A stretch of DNA of 64,000 bases, from assembly GCA_020073005.1 (NCBI GenBank), contig JAIQFX010000048.1, positions 1 through 64,000 on the forward strand. Direction: 5' to 3'. The notes beneath the pieces were generated by a model that saw only the letters and a program-made list of their open reading frames with translations, made no database searches and was not told the DNA's origin. The position numbers were made by a program, and so were the translations under genes. The DNA is from Terriglobia bacterium (GTDB lineage Bacteria; Acidobacteriota; Vicinamibacteria; Vicinamibacterales; CAVVIG01). Shown here in pieces: positions 33,143-40,519 of this stretch (its first letter is position 1; each line of letters opens with the position of its first letter).

Positions 33143-33240
33143 GTCCGGCTGAAGCCGGACACCACGGATATGTAGAGCCGGACACCACGGATATGTAGAG
33201 CCGGACACCACGGATCTGTGGCGTCCGCCTTCAGGCGGAC
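33141..33240. repeat. Palindromes plus a 23-bp tandem repeat
   Basis: A palindrome GTCCGGCTGAAGCCGGAC follows the stop at 33142. Then a 23-bp unit (CCGGACACCACGGATATG then TAGAG) is repeated at 33155, 33178 and, with changes, 33201. A second palindrome (GTCCGCCTTCAGGCGGAC, about 33223-33240) supplies the stop codon of the convergent hydrolase gene. Confidence 0.8.
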
Positions 33241-34310
33241 CCGAGAAGTTCCTTCTTCAGAAATCTCGTCAGAATCCAGCCGTCGAGAAACTTGAACGGC
33301 GCCTTGCCGGTCGAGTAGTGGCCGCAGGGGAGAACCGCCACCTCGTGCGGCACGCCGTGCTCGCCGAACGCTCGAACCAGATCCTCCGAGAGATCGACAG
33401 GGAACGTCAGGTCGTACCGCGCGTAAACGAGCAGCGTCCGCCGATCGCGCAGACGGTCCAGGTACCAGCGCGGGCTGATCGGCTTCCAGAGCGCGCGCAG
33501 CAGATCGAGATCGATGTGCCCGTCGAGTCCCTCGCGCACGTGGCGCGTCGAGAGTCCGCGCCAGACGACGTCGGCGAAGTGCGGCGAGATGTGATTGAGC
33601 GCCGCGGCGTCGATCAGCGGCTCGTGCGCCGCCGTGAGCAGCGCGAGACACGATCCGAGGCTCGTGCCCAGAACGCCGATGCGATCGTAGCCCTGCGACG
33701 CGAGCCACGCGATCGCGCGCCGCGCGTCGAGGACGGCCTGCCGGCAGACCTGCACCGTCCGCGCGATGTTCGCGCTGACGATGTAGTCGGCGCGGTGCAG
33801 CTCGGGCGGCATGCGCTGATCGTGGTACGGCAGGCTCAGGCGCAGCGCGCTGAGCCCGTTCCACGCGAGCAGCCGGCACAGGCCGACGTGACCGCCGGGC
33901 TCGGCGTTCCATTGCGGGAGAACGAGCACCGCCGCTCGGAAGTGTGAGTTGTAGCGCGAGCCTTTCAGGCGAGCGGGATAGTAGCGGCAATAGACCGTGT
34001 TGTTCGTCTCGTGCGGCGTGACGAGCGCGGAGGGAAACGTGAGAACATTCCCGCCAGGGCCATCGGGCGCGGCGCGCAGCGTGTACTCGTCGGTCGGCGG
34101 CAGCGAATAGAACGCGTCGGTGTCGGCCATCACGCTCGACACCCAGTTGCTCAGAATTGCCGACGGCTGATCGCCGTCGACGCGCGGAACGCCGGCCGCG
34201 TGACCGTTCTGCGGAATCCAGTCGAGTCCCCATTCGAACGGACGGACGACGCGATCTTTCGTGACCGAGGCGAGGCGGTGCTCCCAGGCGTGGAAGATGG
34301 CTTGCAGCAT
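33231..34310 (-). CDS. Alpha/beta hydrolase, ABHD18-like
   Basis: A 359-residue protein with the catalytic serine in GVLGTSLGSCLAL, an acidic residue in YARYDLTFPVD and the final histidine in LPCGHYSTGKAPF, in the right order for an alpha/beta hydrolase. The tail matches the ABHD18 family (uncharacterised lipases or thioesterases). An in-frame GTAGCGCGAGCC-type repeat (33950-33975) is translated as [11 protein letters not shown], and the stop lies inside a palindrome. Its 5' end overlaps the -35 box of the lysine operon promoter. Confidence 0.7.
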   Translation of the reverse strand: MLQAIFHAWEHRLASVTKDRVVRPFEWGLDWIPQNGHAAGVPRVDGDQPSAILSNWVSSVMADTDAFYSLPPTDEYTLRAAPDGPGGNVLTFPSALVTPHETNNTVYCRYYPARLKGSRYNSHFRAAVLVLPQWNAEPGGHVGLCRLLAWNGLSALRLSLPYHDQRMPPELHRADYIVSANIARTVQVCRQAVLDARRAIAWLASQGYDRIGVLGTSLGSCLALLTAAHEPLIDAAALNHISPHFADVVWRGLSTRHVREGLDGHIDLDLLRALWKPISPRWYLDRLRDRRTLLVYARYDLTFPVDLSEDLVRAFGEHGVPHEVAVLPCGHYSTGKAPFKFLDGWILTRFLKKELLGSA

Positions 34311-34329
34311 CCATCTCTCATGCTATACT
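34302..34329 (+). promoter_or_regulatory. Promoter of the lysine/DAP operon
   Basis: TTGCAG (34302-34307) and TATACT (34324-34329) are separated by 16 bp. The expected start of transcription (34336-34339) coincides with an ATG at 34339, which opens the candidate leader peptide. It overlaps the first codons of the divergent hydrolase gene. Confidence 0.6.
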
Positions 34330-34338
34330 GCCTGCTTC

Positions 34339-34458
34339 ATGCGATTCGATTCATTGACGTTGTTCACAGGGGGCGCGGCGTTCCTCTCTGTGAAGAAATC
34401 CAAGTGCATCGACCGAAAGCGGGCCTGCCGCGTCGGAGAATGTGTGCTCGAGACCTAG
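34339..34458 (+). CDS. Candidate leader peptide of the lysine operon (39 aa)
   Basis: MRFDSLTLFTGGAAFL then SVKKSKCIDRKRACRVGECV and LET. It has no ribosome binding site but would be translated from a leaderless transcript. Lys codons AAG-AAA-TCC-AAG lie at 34393-34404, and another AAG at 34417. The CCGCGTCGG word at 34428-34436 lies within it and repeats the right arm of the terminator, so ribosome position could choose between structures. Whether it is translated is inferred; it may be chance. Confidence 0.35.
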   Translation: MRFDSLTLFTGGAAFLSVKKSKCIDRKRACRVGECVLET

Positions 34459-34503
34459 TCCTCATAGCAACGAGCGTTCATGCTGCCGACCGGTTGAAAA
34501 CCG
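34428..34503 (+). promoter_or_regulatory. Possible antiterminator structure
   Basis: CCGCGTCGG (34428-34436) is identical to the core of the right terminator arm (34501-34509). It can pair with the left arm CCGACCGG (34486-34493), with one bulged base. If this pairing forms first, the terminator cannot. The two structures are mutually exclusive, as in attenuators. Confidence 0.45.
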
Positions 34504-34519
34504 CGTCGGCTTTTTTTTT
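34485..34519 (+). terminator. Strong intrinsic terminator upstream of asd
   Basis: GCCGACCGGTT (34485-34495) pairs with AACCGCGTCGGC (34499-34510), one bulged base, 3-nt loop, followed by nine T (34511-34519). It is the clearest intrinsic terminator in the window, yet it stands in front of asd (ATG 34540), so it probably controls readthrough into the operon. Confidence 0.85.
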
Positions 34520-34539
34520 GGCCAAAGGGGCTTCTTGAT

Positions 34540-35601
34540 ATGTCAGTCATCGACGTCGGCATTCTTGGCGCGACCGGGCAGGTCGGCCAGCAGTTCATCG
34601 CGCTGCTCACGAATCATCCGTGGTTCCGCGTCAGTTGGCTCGGCGCGAGCGAGCGGTCCGCGGGCAAAGCGTACAGCGAGGCGACTGCGTGGCGGCTGCC
34701 GGCGCTGCTGCCGGACTCCGTCGCGCGGCTGCCTGTGGAAAATGCCCAGGAGGCTGCGCCGCGCGCGCCGAAGCTCGTCTTCTCGGGCCTCGACTCTTCC
34801 GTCGCCGGCGAGATCGAAGCCGCCTTCGCGCAGGCCGGCCACATCGTCGTCAGCAACGCGCGCAACTACCGGATGGAAGCGACCGTCCCGCTGCTCATCC
34901 CCGAAGTGAACGCGGATCATCTCGCGCTGCTCGCCGCGCAGGGCGCGGCGGCGGGATGGAAGGGCCGCATCGTCACGAATCCCAATTGCGCCGTCGTCGT
35001 GCTGGCGATGGCGCTCGCGCCGCTGCGCCAGTTCGGATTGAAGAAGGCGATGATCACGACGCTGCAGGCGATCTCCGGCGCGGGCTATCCGGGCGTGCCG
35101 TCGTGGGACATTCTCGGCAACGTGATTCCGTTCATCGGCGGCGGCGAGGAAGAGAAGATCGAAACCGAAGCGAACAAGATTCTCGGTGCGGTGAAGAACG
35201 GCCGCCCTGTCGAGATTGTCAATCATCCCGTCACCATCAGCGCCGCGGTCACGCGCGTGCCCGTGCAGAACGGGCACACGGGATCGATTGCCGTCGCGCT
35301 CGATCAGCATCCCGATCTCGACTCGATCATCGCCGCGTGGAATTCCTTCCGCGGCAAGCCGCAGGATCTCGAGCTGCCGTCCGCGCCGCCGCAGCCGATC
35401 GTCTATCTCACCGAACAGAACAGGCCGCAGCCCTCGCTCGACGCGAATCGCGACGGCGGCATGACCGTCACGGTCGGCCGGCTGCGACGCTGTCCGGTGC
35501 TCGACTACAAGTTCGCCGCGCTCGGCCACAACACGATCCGCGGCGCCGCGGGCGCGGCGATTCTCAACGCCGAACTGATGCACCGGGAGGGACTGCTGTG
35601 A
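34540..35601 (+). CDS. asd: Aspartate-semialdehyde dehydrogenase
   Basis: 353 residues. It makes aspartate semialdehyde, the branch point to lysine/DAP, threonine and methionine. The NADP motif is GILGATGQVGQQF (8-20), the catalytic cysteine is C150 in VTNPNC, and the LQAISGAGYPG motif is that of the archaeal/fungal-type subgroup. The active-site histidine is likely in RVPVQNGHTGS. First gene of asd-lysC-dapB-dapA-dapD-dapE-like, behind a terminator that may act as a switch. Confidence 0.93.
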   Translation: MSVIDVGILGATGQVGQQFIALLTNHPWFRVSWLGASERSAGKAYSEATAWRLPALLPDSVARLPVENAQEAAPRAPKLVFSGLDSSVAGEIEAAFAQAGHIVVSNARNYRMEATVPLLIPEVNADHLALLAAQGAAAGWKGRIVTNPNCAVVVLAMALAPLRQFGLKKAMITTLQAISGAGYPGVPSWDILGNVIPFIGGGEEEKIETEANKILGAVKNGRPVEIVNHPVTISAAVTRVPVQNGHTGSIAVALDQHPDLDSIIAAWNSFRGKPQDLELPSAPPQPIVYLTEQNRPQPSLDANRDGGMTVTVGRLRRCPVLDYKFAALGHNTIRGAAGAAILNAELMHREGLL

Positions 35602-35662: not shown

Positions 35663-37006
35663 ATGAGCGTCGTCATGAAGTTCGGTGGCACGTCCGTCGC
35701 CGACGCGGATGCGATCAACCGCGTGATCGCGATCGTCGCGAAAGAGAAGTCGCCGGTCGTCGTGGTCTCCGCGCTGTCGAAAGTGACCGACACGCTCGTG
35801 AAAGTCTGTCGCCTGGCTGAAGACGGCGACGGCACCGGCGCCGCGCAGGCGCTCGACGGGCTCGTCGACCGGCATGTGTCGATCGCGTCGGCCGTGACGT
35901 CGGCGAGCCGGGCGAGCGTCCTGGCCGGCGTGAAGGAGGAGTTCGACGAGTTGATCGGCCTCGTCCACGCGCTCGCCGTGCTGCGCGAGGTCTCGCCGCG
36001 ATCGCAGGACGCCGTGCTCTCGGTCGGCGAGCTCGTCAGCAGCCGCATCGTGGCCGCCGCGCTGGCCGATCGCGGGATCGCGAGCGCCTGGGTCGATGCC
36101 CGCGGCGTGCTCGTCACGGACGCGGAGTACACCGCGGCCGTGCCGGACATGACGGCCACCTGCGATCGCGTGCGCGAGACGCTCGCGCCGCTGCAGGCCG
36201 CCGGAAAGGTCGCCGTGCTCGGCGGCTTCATCGGCGCGACGGCGAGCGGCGTGACGACGACGCTCGGGCGCGGCGGGTCGGATTATTCAGCGGCGATTTT
36301 CGGCGCGTGCCTCGGCGTCGGCGAGATTCAGATCTGGACCGACGTCGACGGCATGCTGACCGCCGATCCGCGCGTCGTAGAGCATCCGCGGCTCGTCGAG
36401 CAGCTGTCGTTCAACGAAGCGTCGGAGCTCGCGTTCTTCGGCGCGAAGGTCCTGCACCCGAGCACGATCCTGCCGGCCGTCGACAAGAACATCCCGGTCC
36501 TGATCCTCAACTCGCGGCGCCCGGAGAACACGGGCACGCGGATCACCGCGACCGGCCGGCCTGACGCGCGCGGCCTGACCGCGCTGGCGTGCAAGCGCGA
36601 CGTCACGGTCGTCGACATCACGTCGACGCGCATGCTGATGGCGCACGGTTTTCTGCGGCGGCTCTTCGAGGTGTTCGAGCGCTTCAAGACGCCGGTCGAC
36701 GTCGTGACGACGTCCGAGGTCAGCGTGTCGGTCACCGTGGACGACACGCGCCGGCTCGACGACATCGTCGAAGGACTGCGGCATTTCGCGGAAGTGAGCT
36801 CGGAGCGGGAGATGGCGATTATCTGCGCCGTGGGAGAGAATCTCCGGTCGGATCCGACCGTGTTCGCGCGCGCGGTGACCGCGCTGGACCGCGTGCCGCT
36901 GCGCCTTGTGTCGCAGGCCGCGTCGCGGCGTAACATTACGTTCGTGTTGAGAGACGCCGACGTCCCAGAGGCGATGACGCGTCTCCATGACGAGTTCTTT
37001 CACTAA
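35663..37006 (+). CDS. lysC: Aspartate kinase
   Basis: 447 residues. It phosphorylates aspartate, the first step of the pathway. KFGGTSVADADAIN (5-18), RGGSDYSAAIFGACL (ATP/aspartate site) and HPSTILPAVDKNIPV are all present. Two C-terminal ACT domains (from about 310; VTVVDITSTRMLMAHGFLRR) would bind a feedback amino acid, usually lysine or threonine. A GGAGG site lies 9 nt before the ATG. The 61-bp spacer after asd contains a CCACCCGCC-type word array. Confidence 0.95.
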   Translation: MSVVMKFGGTSVADADAINRVIAIVAKEKSPVVVVSALSKVTDTLVKVCRLAEDGDGTGAAQALDGLVDRHVSIASAVTSASRASVLAGVKEEFDELIGLVHALAVLREVSPRSQDAVLSVGELVSSRIVAAALADRGIASAWVDARGVLVTDAEYTAAVPDMTATCDRVRETLAPLQAAGKVAVLGGFIGATASGVTTTLGRGGSDYSAAIFGACLGVGEIQIWTDVDGMLTADPRVVEHPRLVEQLSFNEASELAFFGAKVLHPSTILPAVDKNIPVLILNSRRPENTGTRITATGRPDARGLTALACKRDVTVVDITSTRMLMAHGFLRRLFEVFERFKTPVDVVTTSEVSVSVTVDDTRRLDDIVEGLRHFAEVSSEREMAIICAVGENLRSDPTVFARAVTALDRVPLRLVSQAASRRNITFVLRDADVPEAMTRLHDEFFH

Positions 37007-37007
37007 G

Positions 37008-37700
37008 ATGCGCATACTCCTGGTCGGTCACGGCAAGATGGGACGGATGGTCGAAGCGCTCGCGCCGGAGTACGGGTGTGACGTCGCCGGCGTCCTGGAC
37101 CCGCTCTCGCCCCGCCACGGCGGCGGGCCGGATGCCGACGCGTGGCGCGGCGTCGACGTCGCGATCGATTTCACGACGCCCGACTCCGTGATGCAGAATG
37201 CGCCGGTCCTCGCGCGCCGCGGCATCCGTCTCGTCATCGGCACGACCGGCTGGTCCGCGCACGAGGCCGCGCTGCGGAAGGTGATCGCCGACTCCGGATC
37301 GGGCATCGTCGTCGCGCCGAATTTTTCGACGGGCGTCGTGCTGTTCGAGGCGGCGGTGGCGTACGCGGCGAAGCTGTTCGCGCCGCACCAGGAGTTCGGC
37401 GCGTTTCTCCACGAAGCGCATCACAGCGCCAAGAAGGACGCGCCGTCGGGCACCGCGCTCTCGCTCAGGCGCGCGATGGAGCAGGCCGGTTATGCGCGGC
37501 CGATCGACGTCTCGTCGACGCGGGCCGGATCGATTCCCGGCACGCACATGGTCGGCTTCGACGGCCCGGCGGAAACCGTCACGCTGACGCATGCGGCGCG
37601 CGATCGCACCGCGTTTGCCCGCGGCGCCTTGACGGCGGCGAAGTGGATCAACGGCAGGAGCGGTTGGTACTCGATGAAGGATGTGTTGGGCCTGAAGTAG
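37008..37700 (+). CDS. dapB: 4-hydroxy-tetrahydrodipicolinate reductase
   Basis: 230 residues from ATG 37008; an in-frame ATG at 36987 would overlap lysC. The nucleotide-binding GHGKMG is at 7-12, IGTTGW near 79, and the catalytic site EAHHSAKKDAPSGTA (H138, H139, K143). It reduces dihydrodipicolinate in the DAP pathway. The stop TAG is followed by GGGCTGGTGGGGCAGG, a short word array. Confidence 0.94.
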   Translation: MRILLVGHGKMGRMVEALAPEYGCDVAGVLDPLSPRHGGGPDADAWRGVDVAIDFTTPDSVMQNAPVLARRGIRLVIGTTGWSAHEAALRKVIADSGSGIVVAPNFSTGVVLFEAAVAYAAKLFAPHQEFGAFLHEAHHSAKKDAPSGTALSLRRAMEQAGYARPIDVSSTRAGSIPGTHMVGFDGPAETVTLTHAARDRTAFARGALTAAKWINGRSGWYSMKDVLGLK

Positions 37701-37728: not shown

Positions 37729-38628
37729 ATGAGAACACCATTCACTGGAGTCGGCACCGCGCTCATCAGTCCGTTCACGCGCGGCGGCGAGCTGGACGAA
37801 GCGGCAGTTCGGCGGCTGGCGCGGCGACAGGTGGACGCGGGCGTCCACTTCCTGTGCCCGTGCGGCACGACCGGCGAGAATCCGACGCTGACGCACGCGG
37901 AGCGGATTCGCACCGTGGACATTCTCGCCGACGAAGTGCGGGGCGAGGTCCCGATCCTCGCCGGCGCCGGCGGCTACAACACGAAAGAAGTGATCCATCT
38001 CGCCGGCGAGATGAAGAAAGCCGGCGCGACCGGGCTGCTCTCCGTCACGCCGTACTACAACAAGCCGACGCAGGAAGGCCTCTACCAGCACTACCGCGCG
38101 ATCGCCGAGAGCACGCCGCTGCCGATCGTCGTCTACAACGTGCCGGGCCGCACGGGCGTGAACGTCGAGCCCGCGACGCTCGCGCGCATGGCCGCGCTGC
38201 CGAACATCGTCGGCGTGAAGGAAGCGTCCGGCAACGTGACGCAGATGTGCGAGATCTGCCGCATCGTGCCGAAGGACTTCATCGTCGTCTCGGGCGACGA
38301 TGCGCTCACGCTGCCGCTGATGGCGGTGGGCGGACGCGGGATCATCTCGGTGGCGGGCAACGAAATCCCGTCAGAGATGGTGCAGATGGTCGAAGCGGCC
38401 GAACGCGGCGACTTCGCCGCCGCGCGCGCGATTCACACGCGCATCCTGCCGCTGATGCTCGGCAACTTCATCGAGTCGAATCCGGTGCCGGTGAAAGCGG
38501 CGATGGCGGCGATGGGATTGATCGAAGAGATCTATCGCCTGCCGATGACGTCGCCGAAGCCGGAGTCGAAGACGAAGATTCTGCAGATTCTGAAAGAGCT
38601 CGGCCTGCTGAAGGGCGCTCTCGTGTAG
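37729..38628 (+). CDS. dapA: 4-hydroxy-tetrahydrodipicolinate synthase
   Basis: 299 residues, TIM barrel. The Schiff-base lysine is K164 (GVKEASGN), with Y136 in VVYNVPGRTG and T47-T48 in CGTTGE. It condenses pyruvate with aspartate semialdehyde. A GGAGGG site lies before the ATG. The stop codon TAG is the first three bases of a TAGCGCGAGC repeat. Confidence 0.95.
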   Translation: MRTPFTGVGTALISPFTRGGELDEAAVRRLARRQVDAGVHFLCPCGTTGENPTLTHAERIRTVDILADEVRGEVPILAGAGGYNTKEVIHLAGEMKKAGATGLLSVTPYYNKPTQEGLYQHYRAIAESTPLPIVVYNVPGRTGVNVEPATLARMAALPNIVGVKEASGNVTQMCEICRIVPKDFIVVSGDDALTLPLMAVGGRGIISVAGNEIPSEMVQMVEAAERGDFAAARAIHTRILPLMLGNFIESNPVPVKAAMAAMGLIEEIYRLPMTSPKPESKTKILQILKELGLLKGALV

Positions 38629-38675: not shown

Positions 38676-39515
38676 ATGCTGAAAAACGAAATCGCCAATC
38701 TGATTGCGACGGGCGCGTCCGTCGACCGCGAGCTCGCGCGCGAGACGTTCGCGCGGTTGCGCGCCGCGCTGTCGTCCGGCGACGTGCGCGCGGCCGAGCC
38801 GGATGAGTCGAGCCCGATCGGCTGGCGCGTCAACACGTGGGTGAAGCAGGGCATCCTCCTCGGCTTCAAGTACGGCGACATGGTCGACGCGTCGATGGAC
38901 CACGGGAAGCTGCCGTTCTACGACAAGGACACGCTGCCGCTGAAGAAACCAGGACTCGCCGCCGGCGTGCGCATCGTGCCGGGCGGTTCGGCGATTCGCG
39001 ACGGCGCGTACCTCGCGCCCGGCGTGATCTGCATGCCGCCGATGTACGTGAACATCGGCGCGTGGGTCGGCGAAGGATCGATGATCGACTCGCACGCGCT
39101 CGTCGGCTCGTGCGCGCAGGTCGGCGCGCGCGTGCACGTCAGCGCCGCCGCGCAGATCGGCGGCGTGATCGAGCCGGTCGGCGCGCTGCCGGTCATCGTC
39201 GAAGACGATGTGCTCATCGGCGGTAACACGGGAATTTACGAAGGCGCGATCGTCAAGGCGCGCGCGGTCATCGCGGCCGGCACCATCCTGACCGGATCGA
39301 CGCCCGTCTACGATCTCGTGCGCGGCGAGATCATCAAGCCGACCGCGGATCATCCGCTCGTCATCCCTGAAGGCGCGGTCGTCGTGCCCGGCGCGCGCGC
39401 CGTGACGACGGGCAAAGGCATCGAGTGGGGTCTCGCGCTCGCGACGCCCGTCATCGTCAAGTACCGCGACTCCCGCACCGACACGCGCACGGAACTCGAA
39501 GAGTGGATCCGGTAG
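38676..39515 (+). CDS. dapD: Tetrahydrodipicolinate N-succinyltransferase
   Basis: 279 residues. An N-terminal helical domain, then a left-handed beta-helix of hexapeptide repeats from about residue 100 ([20 protein letters not shown]). It transfers succinyl from CoA onto tetrahydrodipicolinate and commits the operon to the succinylase route. Sequence is typical of the family. The start codon lacks a clear ribosome binding site because a repeat sits there. Confidence 0.93.
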
Positions 39516-40519
39516 ATCTGGTCTCGCTTACACGCGCGCTGGTCGACATCGACTCGACGACCGGCCGTGAGGGCGCCGCTGGACGCCGGCTCGCCGACTA
39601 CCTGCGTGGCCGGGGCTGCGCCGTCGTCGAGCAGAAGGTCGACGACACGCGATTCAACGTGATCGCGGGCCCTCCGAACGTGGCGTCGGGCTTCAGCCCG
39701 ACCGTCGTTTTTTCCACGCACTTCGACTGCGTCCCGCCGTTCTTCCCGAGCCGCATCGAGGGCGATTGCCTGTACGGCCGCGGCTCGTGCGACGCGAAGG
39801 GCATCCTTGCGGCGCAGGTCGCGGCGGCCGATCGTCTGTGGCGCGACGGCGAGACGCGCGTCGGCCTGCTGTTCGTCGTCGGCGAGGAGCGCGGCAGCGA
39901 CGGCGCGCGAATCGCGAACGACGCCGCAAACGGATCGCGATTTCTGATCGACGGCGAGCCGACCGACAATCGTCTCGGCCTCGCGACGCGCGGCATTCTG
40001 CGACTCAAGCTGCGCGCGGCCGGGCGCGCGGCGCACTCGTCGTTTCCCGAGCTCGGCGAGTCGGCGATCGACAAACTGATCGACGCGCTGATCGAACTGC
40101 GATCGATTCCGCTGCCGGATGATCCTGTGCTGGGACACACGCATTACACGATCGGATTGATCAGCGGGGGCGTCGCGCCGAACGTCGTGTCAGCGTCGGC
40201 CGACGCTGAAGTGATGTTCCGGACGGTGAGCGATGCCGCAGAAGTGAGGCGCGCGGTCACACCGCTCGAGCGGCGCGTGACGATCGAGCATGTCCTCGAC
40301 GTGCCGCCCGTGCGCTTGAAGACCGTGCCGGGATTCGACGCGGCCGTGTTTCCCTATACGACGGACATCCCGTTTCTCGCGCGCTGGGGCGAACCGCTGC
40401 TGTTCGGCCCCGGATCGATCCACGTCGCGCACACCGCGGACGAGTTCGTGTCGATCGCGGAGCTCCGCGCCGCCGCGGATCATTACGTCACGATCGCCCG
40501 GGCTCTTGTGAAGTTGTAG
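39503..40519 (+). CDS. dapE: M20 family metallopeptidase, probable succinyl-DAP desuccinylase
   Basis: 338 residues from GTG 39503, overlapping dapD by 13 bp. Metal ligands: H73 and D75 (FSTHFDC), D97 (GSCDAKG) and the catalytic glutamate E128/E129 ([10 protein letters not shown]), the M20 arrangement. Position after dapD argues for DapE, although the sequence alone could also be an ArgE or carboxypeptidase homologue. It contains an in-frame GCGTCGGGCTTCAGCCCGAC repeat (39682-39701, translated ASGFSPT). Confidence 0.8.

Follow-up and report, generated by a model that had tools for sequence, protein, structure and literature searches.

A putative ribosome-mediated attenuator with lysine sensor codons ahead of the asd-lysC-dap operon in Vicinamibacterales

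The leader of a lysine operon

The regulators known for lysine and methionine operons are mainly riboswitches and T-boxes. In a member of the Vicinamibacterales, an order of abundant, little-cultured soil bacteria, the operon asd-lysC-dapB-dapA-dapD-dapE-like is preceded by a leader that holds a terminator and a short open reading frame (ORF) with lysine codons, which raises the question of what this leader senses and by what means. Here, we analyzed it in the window (the whole stretch of 64,000 nucleotides under study, from a 5.86-Mb assembly) and in relatives labelled Acidobacteria or Vicinamibacterales. The features of the locus are as follows:

34302-34329, + strand: promoter, with -35 box TTGCAG (34302-34307), 16-nt spacer and extended -10 box TATACT (34324-34329, preceded by TGC)
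34339-34458, + strand: leader peptide ORF of 39 codons, ATG at 34339 and TAG at 34456-34458, apparently leaderless, with homologs upstream of asd in relatives
34393-34404, + strand: first sensor cluster, Lys-Lys-Ser-Lys codons AAG AAA TCC AAG (Lys is enriched upstream of the switch point)
34414-34422, + strand: last sensor Lys codon in CGA-AAG-CGG, with a conserved rare Arg codon ahead of it and the switch point directly after
34410-34422, + strand: region 1, CGACCGAAAGCGG, 5' side of the 1:2 hairpin (pairing in the sequence and family permutation)
34428-34436, + strand: region 2, CCGCGTCGG, 5' arm of the predicted antiterminator and 3' side of the 1:2 hairpin
34446-34450, + strand: stop-codon helix, 5' arm GCTCG (conserved pairing)
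34471-34475, + strand: stop-codon helix, 3' arm CGAGC (conserved pairing)
34485-34495, + strand: region 3, terminator left arm and predicted antiterminator 3' arm (family-level pairing tests)
34500-34519, + strand: region 4, terminator right arm (34500-34510) and T9 (34511-34519) (sequence and family-level pairing tests)
34540-35601, + strand: asd, aspartate-semialdehyde dehydrogenase (TIGR00978, above cut-off)
35663-37006, + strand: lysC, lysine-sensitive aspartokinase 3 (NF006570, above cut-off)
36987-37700, + strand: dapB (TIGR00036)
37729-38628, + strand: dapA (TIGR00674)
38676-39515, + strand: dapD (NF008808)
39425-40519, + strand: dapE-like M20 deacylase (family match under curated cut-offs)

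Direct reading of the sequence gives the peptide MRFDSLTLFTGGAAFLSVKKSKCIDRKRACRVGECVLET; of its four Lys codons, the Lys-Lys-Ser-Lys cluster holds three, and the other (AAG, 34417-34419) lies next to region 2. The terminator is a hairpin (34485-34510) followed by T9, and the asd ATG lies at 34540. The promoter, the T9 terminator and the asd start are all where the first-pass annotation had placed them, and its 39-codon frame with Lys-Lys-Ser-Lys codons is confirmed as well, as is its repeated word, region 2, which recurs at 34501-34509 inside the terminator right arm. A generic scan for promoter and terminator consensus picked up neither element of the leader, because the -35 box matches at only three of six positions and the hairpin is bulged; conservation in relatives is the stronger evidence for both. 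A divergent gene on the - strand (33231-34310), of the RcgR family of putative quorum lactone hydrolases (NF047337), overlaps the -35 box with its first codons, and a similar layout is seen in many relatives.

Distribution in relatives

The comparison covered 78 leaders, gathered from covariance-model matches and from the regions upstream of asd and lysC. They come from 77 genomes that span 13 families of the class (Acidobacteriota, Vicinamibacterales and relatives). In the window's family (f1), leaders were gathered without any demand on the peptide; outside it, the leader finder demanded a Lys/Arg pair, which inflates Lys counts there and not in f1. All 27 genomes of the window's family encode asd, and 25 of them have the leader upstream of it; in G019, one of the two without it, the asd contig is broken at the leader position. 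With this conservation in the family, and with covariance-model matches in further families of the class, the element is far beyond chance. The leaders stand ahead of asd, or ahead of lysC where lysC does not lie behind asd, and in G105 another leader with Lys codons precedes the same gene set of asd, lysC, dapB, dapA, dapD and dapE-like. No such leader was found before asd in families f13 and f14 and in many f12 genomes, and no comparable one before asd outside the class (most of 80 loci).

Several loci depart from this pattern. In G010 (L017), the leader ORF and terminator are absent and asd is immediately preceded by a promoter with its -10 box, as would be expected had a deletion removed the attenuator. 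In three genomes (L066, L067 and L070), the leader precedes an asd family that is apparently unrelated, judged from translations only (VGLIGWRGMVGSVLLQRM...), a picture that would fit exchange of the gene with its regulator retained. Upstream of asd in G112 (L131), there is no leader of the terminator type, and a short ORF with Lys-Cys-Gly-Pro-Val repeats (VKKCGPVRKCGPVKECGPVKKC) is found.

Apparent leaderless start of the leader ORF

Counted from the first base of the -10 hexamer, the distance to the start codon is 13-19 nt in 68 of the 78 leaders, a spacing at which the transcript should begin at or just before the start codon, and the leader ORF is apparently translated from a leaderless transcript. 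Such starts are common in the window genome (G000), where TATAMT-N7-11-ATG occurs 59 times against 18 for a reversed-pattern control, about three times the control for TATAMT 13-17 nt before ATG. All but one of 50 such places inspected open a long reading frame, and these further leaderless ORFs with the same -10 spacing were ordinary genes, with no second attenuator among the 50.

Competing helices

Within the window's family, sequences are too alike to co-vary, and the covariation test was therefore moved to the level of families. Terminator words vary by family (GCCGACACGG...CCGCGTCGGC, CCCGCCGACGAG...GTCGGCGGG, ACGCCGGCCTG...CAGGCCGGCGT and others), and the ORF segment predicted to pair with the terminator left arm changes along with them. 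For the antiterminator (2:3), the duplex between the last 75 nt of each ORF and the left arm of its own terminator was compared with those formed with the left arms of all other leaders. The own-arm duplex was better than the foreign-family mean in 65 of 78 leaders, and 12 of 13 families agreed; when left arms were permuted among families, z was ~ -5.6 (0 of 10,000 permutations as good). The corresponding value was z ~ -7.3 for the terminator (3:4) and, more weakly than for these two helices, z ~ -4.1 for the 1:2 hairpin (p 0.0002, 10 of 13 families); since the leaders share ancestry, none of these p-values comes from independent events. The stop-codon helix GCTCG/CGAGC, paired in 91% of cells, would extend the antiterminator (34446-34450 with 34471-34475).

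The first-pass annotation had suggested from the repeated word that an antiterminator is possible, and the 2:3 permutation result backs it. Covariation of the competing helices, proposed there as a check, is positive across families, for 2:3 and 1:2 beside 3:4 and thus not for the terminator alone; within the window's family, it is almost absent. This family-level co-variation argues for an antiterminator and a terminator that are mutually exclusive.

Lysine codons lie at the modelled switch point

We modelled the switch by moving a ribosome codon by codon along each ORF and computing how likely the ORF is to sequester the left arm before synthesis of the right arm. This probability is high with the ribosome upstream and collapses at a definite codon, and in most leaders the last conserved Lys codon lies a few codons (~1 to 3) ahead of the collapse. 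In the window's family, Lys makes up 59 of 388 residues before the switch point and 0 of 274 after it; in all leaders together, which include those selected for a Lys/Arg pair, the counts are 163 of 1222 and 12 of 858. Among other amino acids with AT-rich codons, Asn and Gln have no such bias, Glu is reversed, and Phe is biased, though close to the start codon. In the window leader, the final conserved Lys codon (34417-34419) is probably as important as the Lys-Lys-Ser-Lys cluster. Conserved Lys codons had been named beforehand as a sign of a functional peptide, and here they are conserved and restricted to that side of the switch on which a stall would have an effect; their placement at the modelled switch point also backs the earlier proposal that ribosomes stalled at low Lys-tRNA would free the antiterminator.

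At equilibrium, the mean terminator probability was 0.97 with the ribosome at the stop codon, 0.86 with no ribosome and 0.57 with the ribosome at the first sensor codon. In the window leader, it was 0.78, 0.44 and 0.49 at Lys codons 1-3 and 0.96 at the fourth. The equilibrium switch is thus clear in many leaders and only partial in the window's own, and f2, f9 and most of f12 gave no clear switch in this model. Because the switch is weak in the window leader, a kinetic one is assumed, in which the antiterminator would fold before the right arm exists.

Which amino acid is read

The sensor codons appear to follow the product of the operon. In G088, G089 and G076, the operon is asd, (lysC), (hom), metY, metX (two of the three with hom), and the leader peptides are MARPTDSTPAAAMRMMAMRMTGIGGGAVSGP, MATRFLSPRPATMSMPMMAMRMTSIGGRIVSGP and VTNLLSPTGAPRLMSMRSYSIGGGAVPG, respectively. 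Together, these hold 13 internal Met codons and no Lys; the flanking Arg is kept, and Lys is replaced by Met. In methionine operons, the sensor would thus be Met in place of Lys.

As asd and lysC serve all aspartate-family amino acids, the leader could instead respond to a combination of them (Lys plus Thr, Ile or Met). Ahead of the switch, Thr and Ile too are enriched, and Thr-rich leaders occur, such as MTRTITITVTTRKRELDS (f15) and MTGRSTTTAIMTTTMRKH (f6); however, Thr is sparse in the window leader (T7 and T10) and far from the switch, and AT-rich codons there may be favoured simply for staying unpaired, so that we consider a joint sensor unlikely, if not negligibly so. The peptides of L115, L117, L124 and L134 (f15) and of L091 (G080), all upstream of asd, are very rich in Thr and Ile ahead of the RKR codons and recall thrL.

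Arginine, alone or together with lysine, is a considerably less probable target, despite the dominance of RKR motifs in the peptide: around the sensor Arg equals Lys in frequency, and it makes up 18% of leader residues and flanks nearly every Lys, and the CGA ahead of the sensor is a rare codon. Yet in the window's family, Arg is not placed relative to the switch (76 of 388 residues before, 53 of 274 after), whereas Lys is; moreover, the window operon makes lysine, and the methionine operons keep the flanking Arg while Lys becomes Met.

A protein- or metabolite-binding RNA such as a riboswitch, in which the ORF would be incidental, could account for the nucleotide-level conservation of CGAAAGCGG. 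Against it, a search of Rfam under gathering and E-value thresholds returned no family matching the leader, the T-box covariance model did not match it, and the aptamer model of the lysine riboswitch (RF00168) matched neither the leader nor the window's family, while control genomes did match, which bears out the first reading that no lysine riboswitch motif is present. Furthermore, of the 10 indels that the family alignment has within the ORF, 9 have lengths divisible by three, and the sensor codons switch amino acid with the operon; we regard a riboswitch as very improbable. In two genomes of family f17, which belongs to this class too, RF00168 lies immediately upstream of asd (G041:C292:6119-6307 and G043:C42:27115-27301); two different lysine sensors would occupy the same place in related operons. 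Least probable of all is a small-protein gene with its own terminator and asd on another promoter, since, complete as the ORF and terminator are as a small transcription unit, the peptide is poorly conserved apart from the RKR codons, regions 2 and 3 co-vary, and the gap from terminator to asd can be only ~20 nt.

A rare arginine codon before the sensor

Arg directly before the sensor codon is written CGA in 95 of 105 cases among the leaders, a count that reflects shared ancestry and not independent events, against 33 of 273 for Arg elsewhere in the leaders. Two simple causes were weighed: (i) that Arg-Lys is always CGA-AAG in these genomes was rejected, as Arg before Lys is CGA in only 7 of 76 cases in 139 ordinary genes, and (ii) that CGA is kept for 1:2 pairing was not supported, as in 77 of 95 cases the minimum-energy fold leaves the third base of the codon unpaired. 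In the his leader of Salmonella, CGA increases de-attenuation (PMC4046918). A slow CGA in the P site that sensitises the next codon is plausible but unproven, and a motif at the RNA level is an alternative cause of the conservation. Tentatively, and with rather less than even confidence, the leaders might make up a modular family of attenuators in Vicinamibacterales: a single leaderless scaffold would be re-coded to suit the operon product (Lys to Met), the rare P-site CGA would tune the stall, and sensitivity would come from the CGA-sensor dicodon and not from consecutive sensor codons.

Proposed mechanism

Comparison among relatives supports the ORF, the terminator, the co-varying competing helices, the placement of the Lys codons and the match of sensor codon and operon product. 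A ribosome-mediated transcription attenuator that senses charged tRNA-Lys is, with high likelihood, the best explanation of the leader. The course of events, in which we infer actual termination, stalling, the lysine response, leaderless initiation and the default state, would be the following. Transcription would begin near 34336, and a ribosome would load at once on the leaderless 39-codon ORF. When Lys-tRNA is short, the ribosome would stall at the Lys codons (34393-34419) and leave region 2 free to pair with the left arm (34485-34495); with the aid of the stop-codon helix, this antiterminator would let transcription continue into asd-lysC-dapBAD(E). When lysine is plentiful, the ribosome would reach the stop codon and disrupt region 2 and the stop-codon helix, and termination would follow at 34485-34519. 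If no ribosome translates the ORF, region 2 would be masked by the 1:2 hairpin, which would make termination the default.

Relation to known systems and significance

The proposed attenuator resembles the classical ones of amino acid operons (trp, his, thr, leu, ilv and pheA in Proteobacteria; trp and ilvB in Actinobacteria, PMC1262725; and ilvBNC, PMC11857589) in its short ORF rich in codons for the product and in its alternative 1:2, 2:3 and 3:4 helices with an intrinsic terminator before the first gene. It differs in its predicted specificity for lysine, or in relatives for methionine, in an ORF that is apparently leaderless, in the rare CGA ahead of the sensor, and in a helix that encloses the stop codon, which lies ~20 nt beyond region 2. 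Leader-peptide attenuation by lysine was reportedly described by Tsubouchi et al. in 2005 for the lysine cluster of Thermus thermophilus, and the two would share transcription attenuation of lysine synthesis; however, lysine is made in Thermus by the alpha-aminoadipate pathway, and the phylum is a different one. The lysine riboswitch RF00168, present before asd in the two f17 genomes, likewise places lysine genes under lysine control, whereas the present leader has no aptamer and would read translation and tRNA charging, not free lysine.

The survey of Actinobacteria found no RNA regulatory structure at operons for lysine or methionine and named riboswitches as their RNA regulators elsewhere (PMC1262725), and in Acidobacteria almost no predicted attenuator had an assigned function (PMC2965389). 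Our literature search, which covered few subscription journals, found no paper describing the present element, which is very probably an amino acid sensor read by the ribosome and one not previously described for the phylum.

The whole order appears to read Lys-tRNA, and in relatives Met-tRNA, via ribosomes. The swap from Lys to Met that tracks the operon product would amount to a natural experiment in sensor specificity, and the near-invariant CGA before the sensor poses a testable question on how codon context may set the sensitivity of an attenuator.
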